Shown here piece by piece: positions 1 to 10,203 of a DNA stretch of 10,203 bases. The first letter of the stretch is position 1. Each line of letters begins with the position of its first letter. The stretch is taken from NCBI GenBank assembly GCA_024275095.1, contig JAJRZV010000101.1:1-10203 (forward strand). Direction: 5' to 3'. The position numbers were made by a program, and so were the translations under genes. The notes beneath the pieces are model-generated. The model was not told the DNA's origin and did not search any database. It saw nothing but the letters and a program-made list of their open reading frames with translations. Source of the stretch: a bacterium (GTDB lineage: Bacteria > JAJRZV01).

Positions 1-27
1 AAAAAGCCCCCTCCTTACGGAGGGGGC
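1..27 (-). terminator. Rho-independent terminator of the cold-shock gene
   Basis: Positions 6-14 and 19-27 form a perfect 9-bp GC-rich stem around a 4-base loop (15-18). Read on the minus strand the stem is followed by five T residues (5-1), which is the classical intrinsic terminator layout. It starts 12 bases after the stop codon of the cold-shock gene. The T run may continue beyond the window edge. Confidence 0.93.
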
Positions 28-39
28 CTGTGGCCTCGC

Positions 40-243
40 TCAGTCGAGCTTTCTCACCTTGACGGCCTGGAGGCCCTTGGGGGTCTCCTGGACTTCGAAC
101 TCGACCTTCTGGCCTTCACGCAGGGTTTTAAAACCCTCTTCTTCGATGGCAGAGAAGTGCACAAACACGTCTCCGCCGCCATCCTGTTCAATGAACCCGT
201 AACCCTTGGATTCATTGAACCACTTCACCTTACCAGTAGCCAT
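40..243 (-). CDS. Cold-shock protein, CspA family
   Basis: A 67-residue single cold-shock domain, the usual length for the family. These proteins bind single-stranded RNA and DNA and act as RNA chaperones in the cytoplasm. The RNP1 motif KGYGFIE is at residues 13-19 and the RNP2 motif VFVHF at 26-30; the N-terminal KVKWFN (5-10) is also diagnostic. The ATG is preceded by a perfect AGGAGG with a 7-base spacer. The gene is monocistronic, with its own promoter and a strong terminator. Its codons are markedly richer in G/C-ending forms than those of the following genes, as expected for a highly expressed gene. Which csp paralogue it is, and whether it is cold induced, cannot be told from sequence. 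Confidence 0.97.
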
Positions 244-338
244 ACTACTACCTCCTGAAACTACCCCTTCGGGGCTTGGATTAATTTTAATGGGAACTTT
301 TTCGTGAGGTCCTTCTCCTGCTTAAGTATTACTTTTTC
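244..338 (-). promoter_or_regulatory. Long 5' leader of the csp mRNA with RBS
   Basis: The predicted transcript carries a leader of roughly 85-90 bases before the ATG. AGGAGG (251-256) lies 7 bases from the start. A short stem, CCCC/GGGG with a 3-base loop (264-274), sits just upstream of the RBS. Long structured leaders are known from cspA-type genes, where they control mRNA stability and translation at low temperature. I see no recognisable cold-box sequence, so a regulatory role here is inference. Confidence 0.5.
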
Positions 339-368
339 ACCCTATCACCCTGCCAGCAGGTTTGTCAA
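339..368 (-). promoter_or_regulatory. Sigma70-type promoter of csp
   Basis: On the minus strand a perfect -35 hexamer TTGACA (368-363) is separated by 18 bases from a weaker -10 hexamer, TAGGGT (344-339). The direction and distance suit the cold-shock gene. The spacer contains a perfect inverted repeat, CCTGC-CA-GCAGG (349-360), which could be an operator. Confidence 0.65.
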
Positions 369-599
369 GGGTCCATGAAGAAACCTTACAATTTAAATCA
401 TGGGTATAAAAAGAACGTATTATTGCAGAAGTTGCTTTAGCCGCCGTTTTTCATGAAAAATCCTGTAACGTCAGCACTGGATGTGGTTAAAATATTCTGG
501 GTAGTGGATTATGCCTTTTAGAATAAAAGCCCATACTTATCGGCAGGGCTTTCTTGGCATCCCTGTGGAAGAAAAAATCTCGAAAGCAGGGGTTATCAA
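369..599. other. Non-coding interval between divergent csp and DUF362 genes
   Basis: These 231 bases hold no credible gene. The interval must carry the promoter of the DUF362 gene, but I find no convincing -35/-10 pair; a TAAAAT at about 489-494 lacks a good partner. An inverted repeat lies at 526-552. A purine-rich AGGGG (588-592) sits 7 bases before the DUF362 ATG and is its likely ribosome binding site. Confidence 0.5.
526..552. repeat. Inverted repeat upstream of the DUF362 gene
   Basis: The arms AAAGCCC (526-532) and GGGCTTT (546-552) are perfect 7-base complements around a 13-base loop. On the minus strand the second arm runs into TTTTATTCT, a weak terminator-like tail. On the plus strand it would form a leader hairpin or operator about 48 bases before the DUF362 start codon. 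Its function is unknown. Confidence 0.4.
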
Positions 600-2003
600 A
601 TGAAAAACAGAGAGGCTCGAGTGCTGATATTTAACTGTGATTATTCTGCCGAAAAAATAGCGAGATGCATACGTACTGGACTTGCTGCGTTTGGCCTTCA
701 ACCCGGAGGTAAAATTTTCATCAAACCCAATGCGGTATTTGTGCACAAAAAAGAAATATTCGGGGAAGAATCATACACCCATCCCGCTGTACTTGAAGGT
801 GCTCTTCAGGTGTTCTCACGGCTGGACAATGCCTCCCGCATCTACATAGGTGAGAAAAGTGCTATAGGACTTCCAACACGCCTCGCATACAAATATGCGG
901 GTTATCACCAACTCGTTAAACGCATAAAAAAAACAACCAATACACCTGTTGACCTTTACTGCATCGAGGAAGACCTCCGGGCAGAACGCTTTGTCGGTGG
1001 TGTTGTTCATTCTGTTGTGAGAATTTCAAAAAGAATGGCAGAAAGTGATTTTATGGTGTATCTCCCCAAGTTGAAACGCCATTGTGTGAGCAATATGACA
1101 GATGCGGTTAAATTAAATATCGGGATCCTCAGTGATGACGAAAGGTCTATCAGGCACGATTTTCTGCTCAACGAAAAAATTGCAGACCTGCTATCTGTTG
1201 GATATCCCGACTTTATCGTAATGGATGCCATTACCATAGGCGCGGGAAATGAAGCAGTTCCTGCACCACGTCACCTCGGAGTATTGATTATGGGCGTCAA
1301 TCCTGTTGCCGTAGACCTCGTTGCCGCTCATCTCATGGGGTATACCGCTGATGATATCGATTATTTGAAGGCCGCCATAAAAAGAGGGTACGGACCAGCA
1401 CGTGTAGAAGAAGTCGAGATTAACGGTGATTATTCAAATCTGGACGAACTTGAGCCGTTACGGGAACGTTTGAAGCCATACGATGAAGAATGGCACAGAT
1501 GGGACGACGTAGAAAGGGAACTGAAAAGGGCGAACTCTCCCATCAACTTCTATTTCGGCCCTTCCACGCATAACAGTGAAAAATCACAACGCTGTGAATA
1601 CGGATGTGTTATGGGTGTAAAAATGGCTTTTGCATCTCTTGAACGTTATGCAGGTACAGATGCCTTAAAAAATGCCAGGGGAATCACCATTATTATCGGC
1701 CAACAGGGTGCAGCACCCATCGACTGCGGGGGCGAAGTGGCAATGTTCATCGGGGCATGTTCCCGGGCGAACATTGTTAATGCAAAGAAAATTGTCAGGT
1801 TAAACAAATGCTTTACCACAGCCACAGACATGATACCCCTCATCGGCTTTTATGCGAAGATACCCACACCTTACACTGATGTAAAAATGCTACCCGGTTT
1901 CATATGGTCCTTTCTTCTATCTGCAATGAAAAAACTTTTTGGAGGACGCTATCTTCAGGACATTCTATTCTTTATAAAGCGCAATCTTATACGAAAGCTG
2001 TAA
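600..2003 (+). CDS. DUF362 domain protein
   Basis: A 467-residue cytoplasmic protein with no signal peptide. The N-terminal two thirds match DUF362. They contain a KPNAV motif near residue 42, the YLPKLKRH segment near 154-161 with a nearby DAVKLNIG, and a DFIVMDAI strand near 204 followed by a GVNPVAVDLVAAHLMG helix. The family occurs widely in anaerobes, often beside iron-sulfur or cofactor proteins, but has no agreed biochemical role. There is no ferredoxin-type CxxCxxC cluster. Instead the C-terminal third has spaced cysteines (CEYGC near 333-337, DCGG near 376, GAC near 387, NKC near 403) that resemble the C-terminal part of some DUF362 proteins and could bind a metal. The tail (about 430-467) is hydrophobic, then basic, and may touch the membrane. 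The ATG has AGGGG 7 bases upstream. The gene stands alone. Confidence 0.85.
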   Translation: MKNREARVLIFNCDYSAEKIARCIRTGLAAFGLQPGGKIFIKPNAVFVHKKEIFGEESYTHPAVLEGALQVFSRLDNASRIYIGEKSAIGLPTRLAYKYAGYHQLVKRIKKTTNTPVDLYCIEEDLRAERFVGGVVHSVVRISKRMAESDFMVYLPKLKRHCVSNMTDAVKLNIGILSDDERSIRHDFLLNEKIADLLSVGYPDFIVMDAITIGAGNEAVPAPRHLGVLIMGVNPVAVDLVAAHLMGYTADDIDYLKAAIKRGYGPARVEEVEINGDYSNLDELEPLRERLKPYDEEWHRWDDVERELKRANSPINFYFGPSTHNSEKSQRCEYGCVMGVKMAFASLERYAGTDALKNARGITIIIGQQGAAPIDCGGEVAMFIGACSRANIVNAKKIVRLNKCFTTATDMIPLIGFYAKIPTPYTDVKMLPGFIWSFLLSAMKKLFGGRYLQDILFFIKRNLIRKL

Positions 2004-2012
2004 TCGCGGAAC

Positions 2013-2240
2013 TCAGGACTGACAATTGAAATCCCTGTTCCAAACAAGTGATTCACTGGCAAGCTGGGTTGCATCTGCCACCTTTGTGGAGAAGGGACTC
2101 CCTACGAGAGAGTCCCCGAGGTTATTCTCGCAGAAAGGACATACCGAAGTAATATGCTGGCCTCTATGCCCACAGCTTCTTTGAGCCTTTCCGATGCAGA
2201 CATATTGCCGTGTCTCCCTGTTCCCGTCCATGATACACCC
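2013..2240 (-). pseudogene. Decayed C-terminus of an HdrD/GlpC-like Fe-S protein (CCG domain)
   Basis: Two minus-strand frames together spell the end of a cysteine-rich (CCG) domain as found in heterodisulfide reductase HdrD/HdrB, GlpC and related Fe-S subunits. The first frame (about 2155-2240) gives a GxGRHGNM segment followed by ERLKEAVGIEASIL. After a single-base slip near 2152 the second frame continues with TSVCPFCENNLGDSL and then VADATQLASESL (ending near 2030). This matches the family's order: glycine-rich loop after CCG, helix, (T/A)xCPFC, and a final D(V/A)xxLxAESL helix. The CCG cysteines themselves appear lost; that spot reads VSWTGTGR. The linker between CPFC and the last helix is also shortened. 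No start or N-terminal part is recognisable upstream. I infer a relic of a larger gene. A natural frameshift in a functional gene is unlikely because the front is missing. Confidence 0.6.
2094..2116. repeat. Inverted repeat inside the Fe-S protein remnant
   Basis: GGGACTC (2094-2100) and GAGTCCC (2110-2116) are perfect 7-base complements with a 9-base loop. No T run follows on either strand, so it is a poor terminator, although it could help end DUF362 transcripts. It falls where the remnant's reading frame is shorter than expected and may mark a deletion scar. Confidence 0.35.
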
Positions 2241-2451
2241 CTTTCCGCACGTGTTTTTATTTTATCCCTGGATTTATCGCCGGTAATATTTACGTGATGT
2301 TTTTCTGTTTTCACCCGGAAAGCTCTCGATCCTCCAGCTGAGGTTTCACTTAACGAATGCTTCGCTTTGGGTGGAGCAATACCCTTGACGCTATGAAATT
2401 CTGTAGAAATGATGTTTTCATTACATAATTAAAGTAAAGGGAGAGATTTCT
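2241..2451. other. Non-coding stretch before the HEPN gene
   Basis: No gene is recognised here. It is open in one minus-strand frame from 2314, but the translation resembles nothing I know upstream of the CCG-like segment. A candidate plus-strand promoter lies at 2385-2413. The ribosome binding site GGGAG (2439-2443) sits 8 bases before the HEPN ATG. Confidence 0.45.
2385..2413 (+). promoter_or_regulatory. Candidate promoter of the HEPN locus
   Basis: TTGACG (2385-2390) matches five of six -35 bases. A 17-base spacer leads to AATGAT (2408-2413), which matches four of six -10 bases. The start codon at 2452 follows at a suitable distance. If active it may also drive cbiQO, because no other promoter or terminator is evident before them. 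Confidence 0.4.
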
Positions 2452-2802
2452 ATGACAAGATATAAAGACTGGTGGATCCAGGCCCGCGCCGATTTAAAAC
2501 ATGCAAAAGATTCTCTAAAGGGGGAAGCGTACGAATGGGCTTGTTTTGCCGCCCAGCAAGCTGTGGAGAAGGCATTAAAAGCTGTGTTTGAAAAAAGAGG
2601 CGAACAAATTTGGGGATACTCTATCACACGTATGCTCCAGGTCCTTCAAAAAAGGGGGGTTAAAACCTCCGACGAACTCATTGAATCAGGAAAAATTCTG
2701 GATAAACATTATATTCCCACACGTTATCCGAGTGGATATTTTGATAATTTTGAAAGAGAGCAACTTGAAATTTCTGGAAAGGATTGTCCTGTATTCGCCT
2801 GA
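2452..2802 (+). CDS. HEPN-domain protein, C-terminally truncated
   Basis: A 116-residue frame whose first ~94 residues are a clear HEPN domain (the PF05168 type). They include WWIQARADLKHAKD near 7-20, the core YEWACFAAQQAVEKALKAV near 27-45, and the end-of-core KHYIPTRYPSG near 85-95. HEPN proteins of this kind are usually encoded just before a minimal nucleotidyltransferase (MNT) and act as the RNase or toxin partner of a toxin-antitoxin pair. Normal members continue after YIPTRYP with a further 25-35 residues of helix. Here the following 20 or so residues look foreign and come from reading the downstream MNT remnant in the wrong frame, ending at a TGA. GGGAG 8 bases upstream supports the ATG. 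The protein may still be made, but it lacks the last helix and its partner is broken, so activity is doubtful. Confidence 0.8.
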   Translation: MTRYKDWWIQARADLKHAKDSLKGEAYEWACFAAQQAVEKALKAVFEKRGEQIWGYSITRMLQVLQKRGVKTSDELIESGKILDKHYIPTRYPSGYFDNFEREQLEISGKDCPVFA

Positions 2803-2977
2803 CGATTTTCCAGTGGATATAGACGTATTTCCATACACATTAAAAGAAGTCAAAGGTAAAAACATCCCTTTGATAAATACAGCCTTGAAAATGGGTAAAG
2901 TGCTTTTTGAAAACAAAAAAGCAGTATCACAATTGTATAAAACTTCTTCGATTGTAGCTTCAGCTTTGAAAAGTTAA
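2735..2977 (+). pseudogene. C-terminal remnant of an MNT nucleotidyltransferase
   Basis: A different plus-strand frame from the HEPN gene, overlapping its foreign tail, encodes about 80 residues of a minimal nucleotidyltransferase. It begins at DILIIL, the strand that normally follows GSx(10)DxD, and runs through FLERIVLY. It then shows VDIDVFPYT, the third-aspartate strand with the PYT(P/L)EE turn, and ends with INTALKMGKVLFE, the usual final segment. The front of the domain, including the GS motif and the first catalytic aspartate, is missing and no start codon or RBS fits. The simplest reading is one deletion, with its junction near 2730-2735, that removed the HEPN 3' end and the MNT 5' end. 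In MNT/HEPN pairs the MNT partner acts as antitoxin, in characterised cases by adenylylating the HEPN protein. This copy lacks the catalytic site. Confidence 0.72.
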
Positions 2978-2987
2978 ACTCTGCTTT

Positions 2988-3593
2988 ATGAAGCATTCAC
3001 CTGTAGACCGCTTTGCGTATCAGGACACATTCCTCCACCGCATGGACGTAAAGGTAAAATTTACATTTGCTGGGGCAGTGGTACTGACAGCATCATTTTT
3101 GCCCGGTAGCTGGTATCTTTTTGCATTAGAACTCATGGTGTTGACCGGCATAGGAAGCCTGGCACACATACCGCTCAACTTTACACTGAAAAGGATGCTC
3201 CTGGCTCTCCCATTCGGCGGACTTGTCTTCATATCCAATGCCTTCTACGGGAACACCTTTTCCGTGTCAGAAGTAATTGTACTGATATTACGCGCCAGCG
3301 TGTGTATTCTGGCCGTATTTCTCACTGTGGCAACCACCCCACTCTATAAATTACTCGACGCTTCCGGCAAGCGCGGCAATCCGGCTGTACTTGTTGTAAT
3401 GATGATATACAGATACTTTTTTCTTTTTTTCGATGTACTTGAACGTACGCTGCGAGCCCTGCGGGTAAGAGGCGGGATGCGGGGACAGGCAAAAATTGCT
3501 TCTTCCGCACGTATCGCGTCCAATGTCTTCTCGCGCCTGCTCCAGCGAGCGGAGAAAATACAGATGGCCTTGCTTGTAAAAGGAAGTGGCTAA
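2988..3593 (+). CDS. cbiQ: ECF transporter membrane component, CbiQ/EcfT family
   Basis: A 201-residue inner-membrane protein with four or five hydrophobic segments (about 23-40, 42-60, 72-86, 93-115 and 132-150). It is slightly shorter than typical EcfT proteins (225-270). The N-terminus DRFAYQDTFLHRMDVKVK is the family's typical opening. The two C-terminal coupling motifs that grip the ATPases appear as ALRVRG (157-162) and the degenerate ALLVKG (194-199). It would form the core of an energy-coupling-factor importer with the ATPase encoded 1 base downstream. The ATG lies 10 bases after the MNT remnant and has no visible Shine-Dalgarno sequence, perhaps because the upstream region was rearranged. 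No CbiM/CbiN or other S component is present. The metal assignment rests on the neighbouring NicO gene; a vitamin substrate is possible. Confidence 0.88.
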   Translation: MKHSPVDRFAYQDTFLHRMDVKVKFTFAGAVVLTASFLPGSWYLFALELMVLTGIGSLAHIPLNFTLKRMLLALPFGGLVFISNAFYGNTFSVSEVIVLILRASVCILAVFLTVATTPLYKLLDASGKRGNPAVLVVMMIYRYFFLFFDVLERTLRALRVRGGMRGQAKIASSARIASNVFSRLLQRAEKIQMALLVKGSG

Positions 3594-3594
3594 C

Positions 3595-4299
3595 ATGGGT
3601 TTCCTGAAGGTAAAAAATCTTTCGTGTTCTTATTCAGACGGTACTGTGGGTATACGTAACATATCATTCACATTAAACAAAAACCAGCGCATGGCAGTAA
3701 TAGGTGCCAACGGTGCAGGAAAGACAACTCTTTTACTGGCCCTTGCCGGGCTGATTCCTTTTGCAGGAGAAGTGCGCTTTGACGGAATACTCCTCACCAG
3801 GAAAACTGCACCCGAAATCAGAAAACGGTTGGGATTTGTGTTTCAGGATCCGGATGACCAGATTTTTATGCCCACTGTTTTTGAAGACGTGGCATTCAGC
3901 CTGAGAAATGCCGGAATCAAGGGAGACGAATTGAAATACAGAACATTGAAGGCCCTGGCAACTGTGGGACTTCCCCTGGAATTCCTGTCCAGAGAGCCAC
4001 ATCACCTGAGTTTTGGTGAAAAAAGAAGAGTATGTATTGCGGGAGCCCTTGTTCATGAACCAGAGCTTTTGCTTTTAGACGAACCCACAAGTGGTCTCGA
4101 TCCTCGATCGAGAAGGGAACTGCTGGGCACGCTTCACAATCTCACGTCAACCATTATCATTGCTACTCATGATCTCGATGCAGCCGGTAAAATCTGTGAT
4201 GTTGTACTTCTGTTAAAAAAAGGTCACCAGGTGGCCCTGGGAACAAAAGAAGAAGTACTGGAAGACAAAAAACTCCTGGAGCACTGCGGACTGCTCTGA
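3595..4299 (+). CDS. cbiO: ECF transporter ATPase, CbiO family
   Basis: A 234-residue ABC ATPase that powers the ECF importer from the cytoplasmic face. All motifs are intact: Walker A GANGAGKTT (37-45), Q-loop in VFQDPDDQ (82-89), signature LSFGEKRRV (138-146, a variant usual for CbiO-type proteins), Walker B LLLLDEP (158-164) with the catalytic glutamate, and H-loop ATHD (190-193). The DPDDQ after the Q-loop is characteristic of ECF ATPases. I chose the ATG at 3595 because AGGAAG (3581-3586) lies 8 bases upstream and the cbiQ stop ends one base before it. A GTG at 3586 would add three residues but overlaps that RBS. With a single ATPase gene, a homodimer is expected. The end is only 15 bases from the convergent NicO gene, with no terminator between. 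Confidence 0.92.
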   Translation: MGFLKVKNLSCSYSDGTVGIRNISFTLNKNQRMAVIGANGAGKTTLLLALAGLIPFAGEVRFDGILLTRKTAPEIRKRLGFVFQDPDDQIFMPTVFEDVAFSLRNAGIKGDELKYRTLKALATVGLPLEFLSREPHHLSFGEKRRVCIAGALVHEPELLLLDEPTSGLDPRSRRELLGTLHNLTSTIIIATHDLDAAGKICDVVLLLKKGHQVALGTKEEVLEDKKLLEHCGLL

Positions 4300-4314
4300 G
4301 TACAAAATACATCT

Positions 4315-5574
4315 TCACGGGCACCCGGTTAATAGAACCAGTATCCCCAAGAATACGATAAACATAGCCGATAAAAGCGGCAGGTATGACACTGTTGAAC
4401 TGCCTATTCGGCTACGGAAAGTTTCCGCACCTTTCAAGAAAAGCAGGCCAGCTATAAACACAGCCACGCCAAGTCCGAAACTGAAACCTATAAGAGCCAT
4501 CAGCCCCAGAAAAGAATGCCCGACCGATGCGGCAGCAAGTACAATAGCTATACCTGTAGGACACGGCGCCAGGCCGTAAGAAAGCCCAAGTGTCACGTTT
4601 TCTTTGTAGGATGATACATGTAAGGCATGATCTTCATCCAGGTGCAGTACACCCTTCATCTCGCGCCAGCGCCTCCATAAGAGATAGAGCCCTACCACCA
4701 CGACGAGAATTCCCGAGGCTGTACGAAAAGCACACATGCTACTGCTAACAGGAACGTTCGTTTCCACAATGTAAATACCTATCGCCAGAAGGTATATCGC
4801 CGCCGTGTGACTCAGAACAATGGAGAGTGCCATCGCAGCAACATTGCGTGTTGTACCTTTGTGCCCGGCAAAATAAGCAGCCATAAGTGCTTTGCCATGT
4901 CCCGGGGAAATGGAGTGTATGAATCCAAGGATAAACGCAATGCCCAACAGTAAAACCAGGTCCGCTGCTGCAGGGGTTTCTTTCGCAAGAAGCAGACCTA
5001 TGCGTTTTTTAAGAGAAACGGATTGCATGGGCGGAGGGCGAATTTCCACCCGCGCCCTGCCAGAAAATCTGTATGAATATCGCTTGCCTGCCACCGTAAG
5101 AGTAACGTAGCGATTACCAGGGGCATGGGAGTAAGAATTGTCAACGAAGGTTAAATTGTCAAGTTCTTCAGGGCATTCGCTTGTACTGCCAGAGAGCTTA
5201 TAAGCAATAAGAATATTGGGCAAATTCACATCACCAGTACGGACACGAGCGTATCCTTCTTCCAATGTGAGAGGCACTGGAAAACCTCTGTTTTCCAGTA
5301 CTGTGGCAGAAAGAATTTCTTCCGCCCGCCGACGTACAAGTGCGGCCCGCTCGGTAGCACCGAGCTTACCGTCTCCGTCAGCATCTACACGGTTAATCTC
5401 CTGCAATGAAAGTATCTCGCCTATATCCTCCACATAAAATACAACGAACTGATCATTTTCACATTTGATGCTGACACTTCTGTCAATGCTGGTAAGCCCA
5501 TAATCGTGGGCATAAGCCGGGCTTCGCCACCACGCAATACCCACGCACGCAGCAAGTAAAAGCCTGCCTTTCAA
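4315..5574 (-). CDS. NicO-type nickel/cobalt transporter with EF-hand-like extracytoplasmic domain
   Basis: A 419-residue membrane protein. A Sec signal peptide (1-22, cleavage after AYA) leads to a ~170-residue extracytoplasmic domain carrying a canonical EF-hand-type loop, DADGDGKL...E (64-75), with acidic residues at loop positions 1, 3, 5 and 12. From about 203 to the end are six or so membrane segments with NicO/RcnA-like signatures: the histidine-rich HSISPGHGKA (220-229), a loop DEDHALH (313-319), and GLAPCPTG (334-341). Members move Ni2+ or Co2+, mostly outward. I chose the TTG at 5574: it overlaps the preceding stop codon as TTGA and has GGAAG (5586-5582) 7 bases upstream. The in-frame TTG at 5592 has no RBS. 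This is the last gene of the minus-strand run, tail to tail with cbiO. No metal-responsive operator is visible before it. Confidence 0.85.
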   Translation of the reverse strand: MKGRLLLAACVGIAWWRSPAYAHDYGLTSIDRSVSIKCENDQFVVFYVEDIGEILSLQEINRVDADGDGKLGATERAALVRRRAEEILSATVLENRGFPVPLTLEEGYARVRTGDVNLPNILIAYKLSGSTSECPEELDNLTFVDNSYSHAPGNRYVTLTVAGKRYSYRFSGRARVEIRPPPMQSVSLKKRIGLLLAKETPAAADLVLLLGIAFILGFIHSISPGHGKALMAAYFAGHKGTTRNVAAMALSIVLSHTAAIYLLAIGIYIVETNVPVSSSMCAFRTASGILVVVVGLYLLWRRWREMKGVLHLDEDHALHVSSYKENVTLGLSYGLAPCPTGIAIVLAAASVGHSFLGLMALIGFSFGLGVAVFIAGLLFLKGAETFRSRIGSSTVSYLPLLSAMFIVFLGILVLLTGCP

Positions 5575-6356
5575 TCTACGACTTCCACACAAAGGCTACG
5601 AATAACAGCCGTGGCTTCACCCTGAAATTCACCACCCGCCCACTCATCTGCAACCCACAGGTTAAACATAACATGTCCTCCCTTCCACGGCACAACATGC
5701 CGGTTTTCTGCAACAACCACATCATCTACAGAAAAGGTGACATGTTCGCTATGCCATTCGATCTCGAAGTGATGAAATGCGGAAAAGAAAGTCTCATCTA
5801 CTTCCATAGACTTGGTCTCTTTAAGTATTTCACCACCTTCAGGGTCATACCTTTTCCACGTGGTAAAATAAACAGAGGGAGCACCATAGAAGGTTTCAAG
5901 AACCTCTATATCTATTTCCTGATTATTGTCATCCAGATTATCATCGTGAAGATACGTGAAAAAAGCCGTCACCACCCCCCTTGCCCGTGCAGGCATAACC
6001 CAGGCAGAATATTTGGTACCAGGAATTTCGACGGGAACGGAAACACTGCCTATTTCAGCACCTTCGCGAACCCGAGCATCTCCACTACCCCTACCACGTG
6101 CGGTGAGCACAAGGCCGTCCTGGGTAAACATTACATTTGCGAATTTAAATAAATTACCTCCGGGTCCCCCGGGTACATTATCATCACGGATATAGAAAAT
6201 ATCCGAGTCAGTAAAAAGTGAATACGCATGCGCAGTACGAAAATCTACACTCAGGACATTACATCGGTTACCGGTGCAAGACACACCCGGGAGCAGTGGT
6301 AAAACACTCAATAGAAAAATCAATAACCGGGATGTGAAAATGCGATTACCCAGCAC
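5571..6356 (-). CDS. Glycoside hydrolase family 16, exported (probable lipoprotein)
   Basis: A 261-residue secreted beta-glucanase-like protein. An N-terminal signal sequence (1-26) ends in PGVSC, so Cys27 may be lipidated, although the lipobox is imperfect. The catalytic motif EIDIE is at 147-151: Glu147 nucleophile, Asp149, Glu151 acid/base. Other family marks are the FHHFEIEW strand (194-201), the following FSVDD turn, and the C-terminal MFNLWVADEWAGG segment. GH16 enzymes cut beta-1,3 or beta-1,3/1,4 glucans, agarose, carrageenan or related polysaccharides; the specificity cannot be read here. The GTG start overlaps the end of pheA by 11 bases and has no clear RBS, so translation probably depends on coupling. 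No carbohydrate-binding module is present. A glycanase between amino-acid synthesis and metal efflux genes is unusual. Confidence 0.87.
   Translation of the reverse strand: MLGNRIFTSRLLIFLLSVLPLLPGVSCTGNRCNVLSVDFRTAHAYSLFTDSDIFYIRDDNVPGGPGGNLFKFANVMFTQDGLVLTARGRGSGDARVREGAEIGSVSVPVEIPGTKYSAWVMPARARGVVTAFFTYLHDDNLDDNNQEIDIEVLETFYGAPSVYFTTWKRYDPEGGEILKETKSMEVDETFFSAFHHFEIEWHSEHVTFSVDDVVVAENRHVVPWKGGHVMFNLWVADEWAGGEFQGEATAVIRSLCVEVVD
5582..5586 (-). promoter_or_regulatory. RBS deciding the NicO start
   Basis: GGAAG on the minus strand lies inside the GH16 coding end, 7 bases before the TTG at 5574. It supports this start over the upstream TTG at 5592, which has no such sequence. Confidence 0.55.
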
Positions 6357-7434
6357 TTGCTACAGGATAAGTGCCGAGAGTTTTGACAAAAGTGGAGGAT
6401 TCGCTGAGATTTTTCAACGCCCGCCTAACTCTGGGATTTGTTCTGGCTCCCTCAAAATCCACAAAGAACACATATTCCCATGGAGAATCCTTCATCGGTC
6501 GTGACTCTATCTTTGTCAGGTTAATTCCTTCTTTTGCAAATCCCTCGAGCGCACGAAACAGTGATCCGGGACGATGGGCAACGGCAAAAATGAGCGAAGT
6601 TTTCACTTTACCAGCAATGTGTTTGAGAGGACTTTTATGCAACACAATAAACCTTGTGTAATTGTTTTTTCTATCACTGATGTTATCCGCCACAACAGGG
6701 ACATTGTAAATTTCACCTGCAAGCCGACTACCCACTGCTGCCGCGTCCTTGTCCTCGGACGCAAGCTGCACAGCGCGAGCAGTTGATTCTACTTCCAGGG
6801 ATTTTGCACGTGGAAGATTCTCTCTAATCCAGTTCTTGCACTGTGCAAATGCCTGGGGATGAGAGTAGATCGTCTTTATTTCTTTAAGCGGCGCATGGGA
6901 AAGTAAAGAATGTGAAATGTAAAGCATAATCTCTCCAACGATATGCAGAGAAGTAATGATGAGCCGGTCCAGCGTATGTCCCACGGTGCCCTGAATAGAA
7001 TTCTCCACTGGCACAACACCATAATCTGCCATGCCTGTTTCCACCCATTGAAACACATCATCCACATCTCTCACAGGCACAAGTTCAACCGACCGTCCAA
7101 AAAATTCCACTGCTGCTTGATGGGAAAATGTTCCCAGCGGTCCGAGAAAACACACCTGATGCTTCTCTTCCATGCTCCGCGTCATCGAGATGATTTCTCG
7201 AAACACATTGGCCACTGCCCCCCGATCAAGTTCTTCTGGAACACGCTTTTTGACGCGCTCTATAATTTCCTTCTCTCTTACGGGATCAAACACCGCCATG
7301 CCGTTCCGGGCCTTGAGTTCACGAAGCTGCCGCGCATACCTAACGCGACGTTTCAGCAGCGTGACAATCTCATCGTCAATGCGGTCTATACGCGCTCTAA
7401 TTTCAGCGATTGGATTTTTATCTTTCTTGTCCAT
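6346..7434 (-). CDS. pheA: Bifunctional chorismate mutase/prephenate dehydratase (P-protein)
   Basis: A 362-residue cytoplasmic enzyme that turns chorismate into prephenate and then phenylpyruvate, the precursor of phenylalanine. An AroQ-type mutase domain covers about 8-88, with expected active-site residues Arg13, Arg30, Lys41, Asp50 and Glu54. The dehydratase domain runs from about 93, with GPLGTFSHQAA (98-108), VPVENSIQG (141-149) and the catalytic NNYTRF (257-262). The C-terminal ACT domain (about 280-355) has RPGSLF (288-293) and ESRP (310-313), the phenylalanine-binding motifs, so feedback inhibition is expected. Length is normal. The ATG at 7434 follows a purine-rich RBS (GGAGAAGGGGGG). 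A GTG at 7464 would add ten residues and lengthen the overlap with the upstream gene. No attenuator or Phe-rich leader is visible, as expected for an internal operon gene. Confidence 0.96.
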   Translation of the reverse strand: MDKKDKNPIAEIRARIDRIDDEIVTLLKRRVRYARQLRELKARNGMAVFDPVREKEIIERVKKRVPEELDRGAVANVFREIISMTRSMEEKHQVCFLGPLGTFSHQAAVEFFGRSVELVPVRDVDDVFQWVETGMADYGVVPVENSIQGTVGHTLDRLIITSLHIVGEIMLYISHSLLSHAPLKEIKTIYSHPQAFAQCKNWIRENLPRAKSLEVESTARAVQLASEDKDAAAVGSRLAGEIYNVPVVADNISDRKNNYTRFIVLHKSPLKHIAGKVKTSLIFAVAHRPGSLFRALEGFAKEGINLTKIESRPMKDSPWEYVFFVDFEGARTNPRVRRALKNLSESSTFVKTLGTYPVASAG

Positions 7435-7972
7435 CCCCCCTTCTCCGTAAAATTTGAATGCCACGAACGACGTAATGAACCGCTGAAAAAGCGGTGAGAG
7501 CAGCAGTGATCATAATCAGTGCCCAGCTATACCACTTGAGTTCCACGTACCCGCCTCTTTCCACAAGAAGCACAACAAAAGCAGTTGTTAGCTGAAAAAA
7601 AGTCGCCGCTTTACCTTCTGGTAAAGGCTTAATATCAATAACTCCCACGAGTGGAATAAGCACAAATGTACCAAGCCCTGTGAGAACATCCTTAAACACA
7701 ACCAGTGCAACAAGCCAGAGAGGAATATACTGAAAATACCCGAGAGACACATATGTGGTAACAAGAAAAATTTTGTCCGCAATTGGATCAAGATACGCAC
7801 CGAGTTTAGACTGGTAGTGAAAGCGACGAGCCACAAACCCATCTATCCCATCACTGGCCCAGGCTACAACATACACAGCAAAAGCAGTTCTATCATCGCC
7901 CGTGTACAAAAAGTATACAAAAAAAGGCGATAGTACAATCCGCAATGATGTAAGCACATTCGCAGGATTCAT
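7418..7972 (-). CDS. pgsA: CDP-alcohol phosphatidyltransferase, PgsA-like
   Basis: A 184-residue inner-membrane enzyme with four to six hydrophobic helices. The complete CDP-alcohol phosphotransferase signature is present at 41-66: Asp41, Asp44-Gly45, Ala48-Arg49, Gly58, Asp62 and Asp66 in the D-x2-DG-x2-AR-x8-G-x3-D-x3-D spacing. The N-terminus NPANVLTSLRIVLSP is typical of CDP-diacylglycerol-glycerol-3-phosphate 3-phosphatidyltransferases, which make the phosphatidylglycerol precursor. Another acceptor alcohol cannot be excluded. The ATG overlaps the preceding lipoprotein stop as ATGA, and a GAGAG lies just upstream, so translation is likely coupled. The 3' end overlaps pheA by 17 bases. 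Confidence 0.9.
   Translation of the reverse strand: MNPANVLTSLRIVLSPFFVYFLYTGDDRTAFAVYVVAWASDGIDGFVARRFHYQSKLGAYLDPIADKIFLVTTYVSLGYFQYIPLWLVALVVFKDVLTGLGTFVLIPLVGVIDIKPLPEGKAATFFQLTTAFVVLLVERGGYVELKWYSWALIMITAALTAFSAVHYVVRGIQILRRRGDGQER
7435..7446 (-). promoter_or_regulatory. RBS of pheA
   Basis: GGAGAAGGGGGG directly precedes the ATG at 7434. It lies within the 3' end of the upstream phosphatidyltransferase gene and favours 7434 over the GTG at 7464. Confidence 0.7.
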
Positions 7973-8292
7973 CGTTCTCTCACAGGAAATTCAATTGTAA
8001 CAAAAGTACCGGGGATAGCATCCAGGAAAAACACGTATTCCTTGCTTTTTACATATACACTCAACCGATGCCTGCCCTGTACAAGAGCAACCACGCCGTC
8101 AGCAACGAAGTCTGCCGGCCGACCATCTACAAAAATCACTGTATCTTCCGGCACGTTTTTGAACCTGACGATACAATCTCCAGAAGAGTCCAATTTTACA
8201 AACGGTTTTGAAGAAACACACCCCGCGCATACCGTGGAAAACCCCACCGTAAGAATAAAAATAAAAACGCCGTTATTTAAGGCCCTTGTCAT
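7969..8292 (-). CDS. Small putative lipoprotein, PEGA-like
   Basis: A 107-residue protein. The N-terminal signal (1-24) ends in CAGC, making Cys25 the likely lipidation site. The mature part is a short beta-rich domain. The pattern VIFVDGRPADFV (52-63) followed by LVQGRHRLSVYV (70-81) resembles a PEGA domain, a surface-associated fold. No enzymatic motif is present. It lies 8 bases downstream of the secreted FlgT-N-like gene and overlaps pgsA by 4 bases, so the first two may form an envelope pair. The RBS is weak. Specific function is unknown. Confidence 0.75.
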   Translation of the reverse strand: MTRALNNGVFIFILTVGFSTVCAGCVSSKPFVKLDSSGDCIVRFKNVPEDTVIFVDGRPADFVADGVVALVQGRHRLSVYVKSKEYVFFLDAIPGTFVTIEFPVRER

Positions 8293-8300
8293 GATAAATC

Positions 8301-9344
8301 TTAAAAAATGCTGAGCGAGATGGTGTTTCCTTCTATTGCGTTAATCTCGGTACGAAAGTGACCGAACTGTCCGCTTTTCATCCTCCTGATGATTAATTTA
8401 AAAAGCGCACCGGCTTCAAACGAGATACCAACACCAGACGGTGTAATCAATGAAATTTTAGGTTCGGTAATATAGGCCTGAGAAGCCTTCAGCTCTTCGA
8501 TAAAATCTTTAACTCGGTCGAGGTTAAACACGTTTTCCAGAATAATCGTATAAGTTTGAAGCCTGAAATATTGCTTCTTCCATACATCCACTGCATGAGG
8601 TACAAACACCTTTGCTGCATAATGGATGGTCTCGTCGAACAGGGCACTAAGAGGGTCTTCCTTTTTCCTGGTCATGGATGTAAACATCTTTTGAGCTGAC
8701 GTAAGGTAAATGTGTCCCGGTTCCATATAGGCGCTGATATTTAATTCAGCTTTACCGTACCGGTTAAACACCAACAAAGGCATTTTTATCTCATACACAT
8801 TCACATCTACAGCGATCACCACATCTGCTCGCGTAACCTCAGGTGAATAGCGCACAGTATCTGGTGAAACTGTTTGGGTAAGTATGCTGAGAAAAGATGC
8901 ACATTGTTCTTCATTAAGGTTTTCACAGGTAAGGACAATGGCCACGGCTGGAAGATAGTTGAGGGTTCTCAGTACTCCAGCCCTCGCAAGATCCCCAAGA
9001 ACCATGTCATCGTTAAATTCCACCTCTATTTTTATACGGTATTCGTTATCAACAACCCCCTCTTCAAGAATAGAAAACGTTTCTACATAGGTACGAGCAC
9101 GTGGTAAAAAATCTTTCTCAAGCCATCTGGATACAGACTCTGGAAATTCGGGTGGTAATTTGTCCTGAAGATACTCTCTCAATGCGTTCTGAAAAGCATC
9201 CTCTATTGCCTGCGCCCTTGCATCAGCATTGCCTGAGGCCTTTTCAAGAGAACACTTGCCAACTACCCCCGTAACCAGCTCTCCGCGGCTTATCATCGGG
9301 ATCGAACACAAGCAAAGTACCAGGACGCCCAATCTATTGTTCAA
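8301..9344 (-). CDS. Secreted protein with FlgT-N-like domain, function unknown
   Basis: A 347-residue protein with a signal peptide (about 1-21), so periplasmic or outer-membrane associated. Residues about 35-120 recall the N-terminal domain of flagellar assembly protein T and related secreted proteins: an [14 protein letters not shown] helix, then [15 protein letters not shown], then a YRIKIEVEF strand. The middle (130-250) is alpha/beta and unassigned. The end (265-347) looks like a compact alpha/beta repeat. No flagellar gene is nearby, so a flagellar role is not implied. I chose the TTG at 9344: GGGAGG (9359-9354) lies 9 bases upstream, and it gives a clean signal peptide. An in-frame codon at 9392 would put a charged stretch ahead of the signal and overlap hflX by 59 bases. 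The chosen start overlaps hflX by 11. Confidence 0.72.
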
Positions 9345-10203
9345 CTGCAGATTCCTCCCTTTGGCGTGCATGTACAATTTCAAGTGCAACATCTTTCATC
9401 TTTTCCCTGAGATAGTCAAGGCCTTCTTCCACAAGTGCTGAACCGGTAACACTCAGCGGGTACTGTCGCGCCAGGCGCACGACCCTCTCCCTCTGTACAG
9501 TACTGAGCAAATCCAGTTTATTGAAAAAGAAGATGGCATTTTTTCCGGTAGCACCAATTTCTTCAAGGGTGGAAAGCACGGCTTCTATCTGAGGCTCTAT
9601 GTCTTTCCAGGTAGAGTCAACAACAACAATTATTGCGTCACTGTGTACTACTTCTTCCAGTGTTGCTCTAAAAGCCTCTATTAATTGATGAGGAATTTTG
9701 CGTATAAAACCCACAGTGTCTGACAAAAGAACATCACCAAAATCAGGAAGATAAACCCTTCGCACGAGAGCATCAAGCGTAGAAAAAAGCTGATCCTTGA
9801 CAAAAACGTCACTGTGAGTGAGAGCCCGCAAAAGAGTGGATTTTCCCGAGTTCGTATAGCCTACGAGTGCAAAAGAGAGCATTTCAGAAAGGCGACGCTT
9901 TCGCTGTTGAGCTCTCCTCTGTCGAATTTTCTCCAGGTCATTTTTGAGTTTTCGGATGCGTCGAAGGATCTTGCGGCGGTCAACTTCAAGCTGTTTTTCA
10001 CCCGGACCACGCATGCCTATACCACCGCCCAACCTGGAAAGTTCTCTCCCGCGTCCAACAAGGCGCGTGAGCATATATTGAAGCTGGGCCAGCTCAACCT
10101 GTATTTTACCTTCGTTGGTCCTGGCACGCTGTGCAAATATGTCCATAATAAGCCTGGTGCGGTCGAGAATTTTCACGCTTAATTTTTCCTCAAGATTACG
10201 CTG
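9334..10203 (-). CDS. hflX: GTPase HflX, 5' end beyond the window
   Basis: The frame is open through the right edge, so only the last 289 residues are seen; about 100-130 N-terminal residues should lie outside. HflX is a ribosome-associated GTPase that splits stalled or idle 70S ribosomes, notably under heat stress. Visible marks, numbered from the first complete codon, are [20 protein letters not shown] (14-33, the HflX N-domain end), the glycine-rich [15 protein letters not shown] loop (59-73) and a basic helical linker. The G domain has G1 GYTNSGKS (115-122), G3 DTVGF (162-166) and G4 NKLD (228-231). The apparent GTG start at 10176 is internal to this frame and should not be used. It is the first visible gene of the seven-gene run; its promoter is outside. 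Confidence 0.95.
9354..9359 (-). promoter_or_regulatory. RBS deciding the start of the FlgT-N-like gene
   Basis: GGGAGG lies within the last codons of hflX, 9 bases before the TTG at 9344. It is the only strong Shine-Dalgarno sequence near this junction. Confidence 0.6.

Follow-up and report, generated by a model that had tools for sequence, protein, structure and literature searches.

Background

The closest described relatives of the locus studied here are the modules that join a PF05168 HEPN to a PF01909 MNT, which are classed as 'Class II' HEPN/MNT pairs and whose HEPNs are without the RX4HXY RNase motif (PMC7641770). Yao et al. stated that, to their knowledge, no biochemical study of Class II existed (PMC7641770), and an earlier genome-scale screen, as it is cited in PMC3710099, indicated some of the motif-less HEPNs as toxic. 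In the HepT/MntA system, toxin modification, i.e., HepT adenylylation, is lost when GS is changed to AT or DxD to ExE (PMC7641770).

Here, we examine a HEPN/MNT locus in a 10,203-nucleotide stretch of a bacterial draft genome (GenBank assembly GCA_024275095.1, contig JAJRZV010000101.1, positions 1 to 10,203; hereafter, the window). With the Class II pairs (HEPN-T of Anantharaman 2013, COG2250/COG1708 of Makarova 2009) it shares the HEPN subfamily and the type of partner, and HEPN precedes MNT with the order and overlap seen in our homologues L005-L049; unlike these pairs, the locus has lost ~231 bp at the gene border, and neither protein is complete. The superfamilies and the two-gene plan are also those of the HepT/MntA type VII toxin-antitoxin (PF01934/PF01909, Shewanella), but the window HEPN belongs to PF05168 rather than to the PF01934/PF08780 families of Class I, has Tyr at position 56 and no RX4HXY, stands in the opposite gene order, and faces an MNT whose catalytic motif is lost. 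We consider it very probable (roughly 88%) that one ~231 bp deletion across the gene border explains both truncations, and that the locus represents ordinary gene decay.

Results and discussion

The HEPN reading frame keeps its core and loses its native end

Table 1 Features of the HEPN/MNT locus (window coordinates)
Feature	Position	Strand	Detail	Basis
Shine-Dalgarno-like AGGGAG	2438..2443	+	8 nt 5' of HEPN ATG	visible in sequence
HEPN ORF	2452-2802	+	ATG start, 116 aa, no internal stop	
HEPN (PF05168), codons 1-93	2452..2730	+	conserved core ending KILDKHYIPTRYP	Pfam match, homologue alignment
Putative deletion junction	2731..2732	+	HEPN to CCGA (2731), MNT from GTGGAT (2732)	~231 bp missing versus intact loci
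Out-of-frame HEPN tail	2731..2802	+	SGYFDNFEREQLEISGKDCPVFA and stop, in place of native ~35-aa C-terminal helix region	
MNT remnant	2732..2977	+	V of D-V-D to natural stop; +1 frame relative to HEPN	custom profile

PF05168 recognizes the HEPN ORF (Table 1) with E=1.2e-26 and 93.6 bits, where the curated Pfam cut-off is 22, and a sequence-only reading of the window was right that the core is intact up to YIPTRYP. The translation runs MTRYKDWWIQARADLKHAKDSLKGEAYEWACFAAQQAVEKALKAVFEKRGEQIWGYSITRMLQVLQKRGVKTSDELIESGKILDKHYIPTRYP and then continues out of frame as SGYFDNFEREQLEISGKDCPVFA; homology to relatives is unbroken to RYP (codons 91-93) and stops at residue 93-96, which leaves the PF05168 domain incomplete, with its C-terminal helix region replaced. 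Two HEPN proteins of known structure show the same extent of similarity, namely 1ufb (Thermus TT1696; window residues 1-96, phmmer E=8.6e-25) and 1o3u (T. maritima TM0613; window residues 10-96, phmmer E=9.3e-21), the latter sharing Tyr at 56 with the window HEPN, and unlike both of them the window protein ends its homology at the junction, the C-terminal part being absent. The replacement tail consists of 23 residues from MNT-coding DNA read in the wrong frame and includes the peptide SGYFDNFEREQLEISGK.

Within the core, mean identity to homologues is 54%, versus 55-63% among intact copies, and only two of 26 scored conserved positions depart from the consensus (A38V and H56Y). Among 30 homologues, position 56 carries His in 27, Asp in two, and Gln in one, and the window HEPN has Tyr there. 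H56 alone qualifies well as the candidate active-site His (Rx4-6H motif); Asp replaces the corresponding His in several PF05168 proteins (PMC3710099).

These features bear on a reading in which the cell expresses the truncated 116-aa HEPN and has kept it, for example to bind RNA or protein in a non-toxic role or as an orphan toxin deprived of its MNT. Its ORF keeps a Shine-Dalgarno-like sequence and has no internal stop, which also counts against decay, the core departs at two scored positions only, and changes of the H56Y type are natural (Tyr in TM0613; Asp in two homologues and Gln in one). AlphaFold2 gave the truncated protein a mean pLDDT of 84.6 and modelled a short helix within the replacement tail, although the aligned rows may induce this helix and we do not take the model as proof of folding. 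Against retention, the native C-terminal helix, which in the modelled intact protein L005 is the last long helix (residues 107-129), is lost to an accidental reading frame, no homologue has such a form, and the His at 56 has been replaced. We therefore regard expression and retention as improbable, and the stricter version, in which this lineage has domesticated and kept the shortened HEPN and its 23-aa tail as an orphan, as marginally more improbable still. If the stricter version were true, two HEPN loci of this genome without a working MNT (the one in the window and one on contig C105) would suggest that HEPN-T proteins can persist without MNT.

An orphan toxic HEPN is not supported at this locus: since Class II modules have no biochemical toxin-antitoxin proof and some motif-less HEPNs are indicated as toxic, a 'toxin without antitoxin' cannot be asserted. 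Hence, between the two outcomes offered by the sequence-only reading, a dead locus or an orphan HEPN, the former is favored and the latter is weak, given the lost helix, H56Y, and the missing RX4HXY. The same reading had credited the HEPN part with a good ribosome-binding site and a candidate promoter; the former stands, while the promoter is a single 9-of-12 match where 2.0 are expected by chance, and promoter and terminator scans gave results at or below chance level.

The MNT remnant lacks its catalytic motifs

Downstream of the junction, the encoded piece opens VDILIILKESNLKFLERIVLYSPDDFPVDIDVFPYTLKEV, and the frame from 2732 begins VDILIILKESNLKFLERIVLYSPDDFPVDIDVFPYTLKEVKGKNIPLINTALKMGKVLFENKK and runs to its stop. 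A Pfam search with this piece alone matched no family, and a custom profile was thus needed. Our profile of 12 homologous MNTs, searched against the six-frame translation of the window, matched the remnant at E=1.5e-19 (model positions 50-112 of 115), with the second-best frame at E=3.4, and this match is far from chance. The remnant is at most 60% identical to any homologue (L005 being the best), its mean identity to homologues is 43% versus 38-47% among intact copies, and PF01909 recognizes the MNT of one intact relative (E=1.1e-8). The piece is accordingly homologous to the C-terminal half of the MNT partners of PF05168 HEPNs. The sequence-only reading had it enter at the DILIIL strand; the change of frame and the natural end were confirmed, and the entry lies one residue earlier, at the V of D-V-D.

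The remnant has no start, no N-terminal helix, and no GS motif, and of DxD it lacks the first Asp; the GSx(10)DxD nucleotidyltransferase motif (PF01909/PF18765) is consequently incomplete. No start or Shine-Dalgarno sequence of its own is visible in the sequence, and the remnant is probably untranslated. Even if translated, the product would be catalytically dead and could not be active, because the GS and the first Asp are lost and MntA needs these motifs for HepT adenylylation.

Intact loci point to a probable single deletion at the gene border

Related loci were drawn from a scan of GTDB contigs (13 loci) and a search of 386 genomes (29 further loci), a set in which the window genome is the sole member of its phylum. 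Nearly all encode a HEPN of ~128-134 aa followed by an MNT of ~100-130 aa with FGSx(n)SDVD, and intact pairs, found in many phyla, usually overlap by 20-40 nt with the MNT in the +1 frame; in 34 comparable loci, a complete MNT overlaps or abuts the HEPN (~129 aa). In the 34 loci with both motifs, we measured how far the codon for the first Asp of DxD lies from the one that follows RYP; this spacing is 232 nt in 17, 229 in 11, 235 in four, 254 in one, and 209 in one, i.e., 1 modulo 3 in 32 of the 34. All loci most similar to the window (L005-L008, L028, and L029) have a spacing of 229, while in the window it is -2 nt, likewise 1 modulo 3. The comparison with intact loci that had been recommended puts the size of the deletion at an estimated 231 bp, or 77 codons, and its place at 2730-2732, in agreement with the proposal of one event behind both truncations. 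As this length is a multiple of three, it would leave the inherited phase between the frames in place and make an extra frameshift unnecessary.

By this account, a single ~231 bp deletion would have taken the last ~36 hepn codons and the first ~48 mnt codons, and the 5' part of HEPN and the 3' part of MNT are both present, contiguous, and in ancestral relative phase. At the corresponding site, homologues read CCN AAY GGN in HEPN and GAY GTN GAY in MNT, and short microhomology near TGGA, of a few bases, may have steered the event. HEPN would still be translatable from its own ribosome-binding site, yielding a chimera-tailed protein of 116 aa that is probably non-functional. The window locus thus lacks the two complete adjacent genes of a functional HEPN/MNT pair, one deletion having apparently truncated both. 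It counts against decay by deletion that no close relative supplies a direct ancestral sequence. The sequence-only reading had named relatives with the same short two-frame form, under purifying selection, as contrary evidence; the form was found at none of the homologous loci examined. A DNA search of 41 genomes yielded nothing beyond one brief 83% stretch in a distant genome, viral contigs held no relative, and NCBIfam and PADLOC gave nothing meaningful.

Could the deletion be absent from the organism and arise in assembly? The contig is draft and the genome lies in 136 contigs, but the junction falls mid-contig, is single copy in the genome, and is exact with neither side degraded and neighbor genes intact, and the microhomology (at most ~4-5 bp) is far under what collapses an assembly; we hold such an artefact to be very unlikely. 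Programmed +1 frameshifting that yields a HEPN-MNT fusion protein we judge less credible than any of the other readings, to the point of near-dismissal. The MNT frame is indeed +1 and stays open through the junction, between 2579 and the stop codon at 2977, but the fusion would be inactive, its MNT half having neither GS nor the first Asp. Intact homologues also show this +1 phase, with HEPN and MNT as distinct genes that overlap, and the phase is thus inherited and not evolved for recoding.

Returning to decay by deletion, neither remnant has a stop or indel beyond the deletion, and each is nearly as conserved as its intact homologues, which makes a recent event probable. Decay is common in the family: one PF05168 HEPN locus in Bipolaricaulota (L016, 2501-3000) is broken by a frameshift, and two in genome G018 (L035, ~1640-1654, and L004, ~1584-1600) have in-frame TAG stops, while the window genome itself has a further locus (contig C105, below) with its MNT divided among three frames; decay is thus usual in this mobile family. 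The window provides a clean example of deletion-driven decay in a very common mobile gene pair, and recognizing it avoids annotating the locus as a working toxin-antitoxin system or a new HEPN-MNT fusion.

Other loci of the genome and the gene neighborhood

A second MNT/HEPN locus of the same genome lies on contig C105 (L025, ~1360-1720, minus strand), where the HEPN is intact (130 aa) but reading the MNT requires three frames, which change near A-rich runs; this reflects either another broken MNT or indels introduced by sequencing. MNT lost and most of HEPN kept at two loci of one genome would be a small hint that Class II HEPNs on their own may lack strong toxicity. Elsewhere, contig C22 carries a lone MNT, and contig C12 (8046-8861, minus strand; L020, L024) holds one 322-aa ORF with both MNT and HEPN domains.

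Upstream of the HEPN remnant, ~450 bp (2004-2451) without a recognizable gene separate it from a DUF362 protein; small ORFs there matched nothing in Pfam, and Rfam had no match in the window. Downstream, no substrate-binding component is visible upstream of the ECF-like transporter genes, which comprise CbiQ-type (PF02361) and ABC ATPase genes at 2988-4299 and begin 11 nt past the MNT stop.
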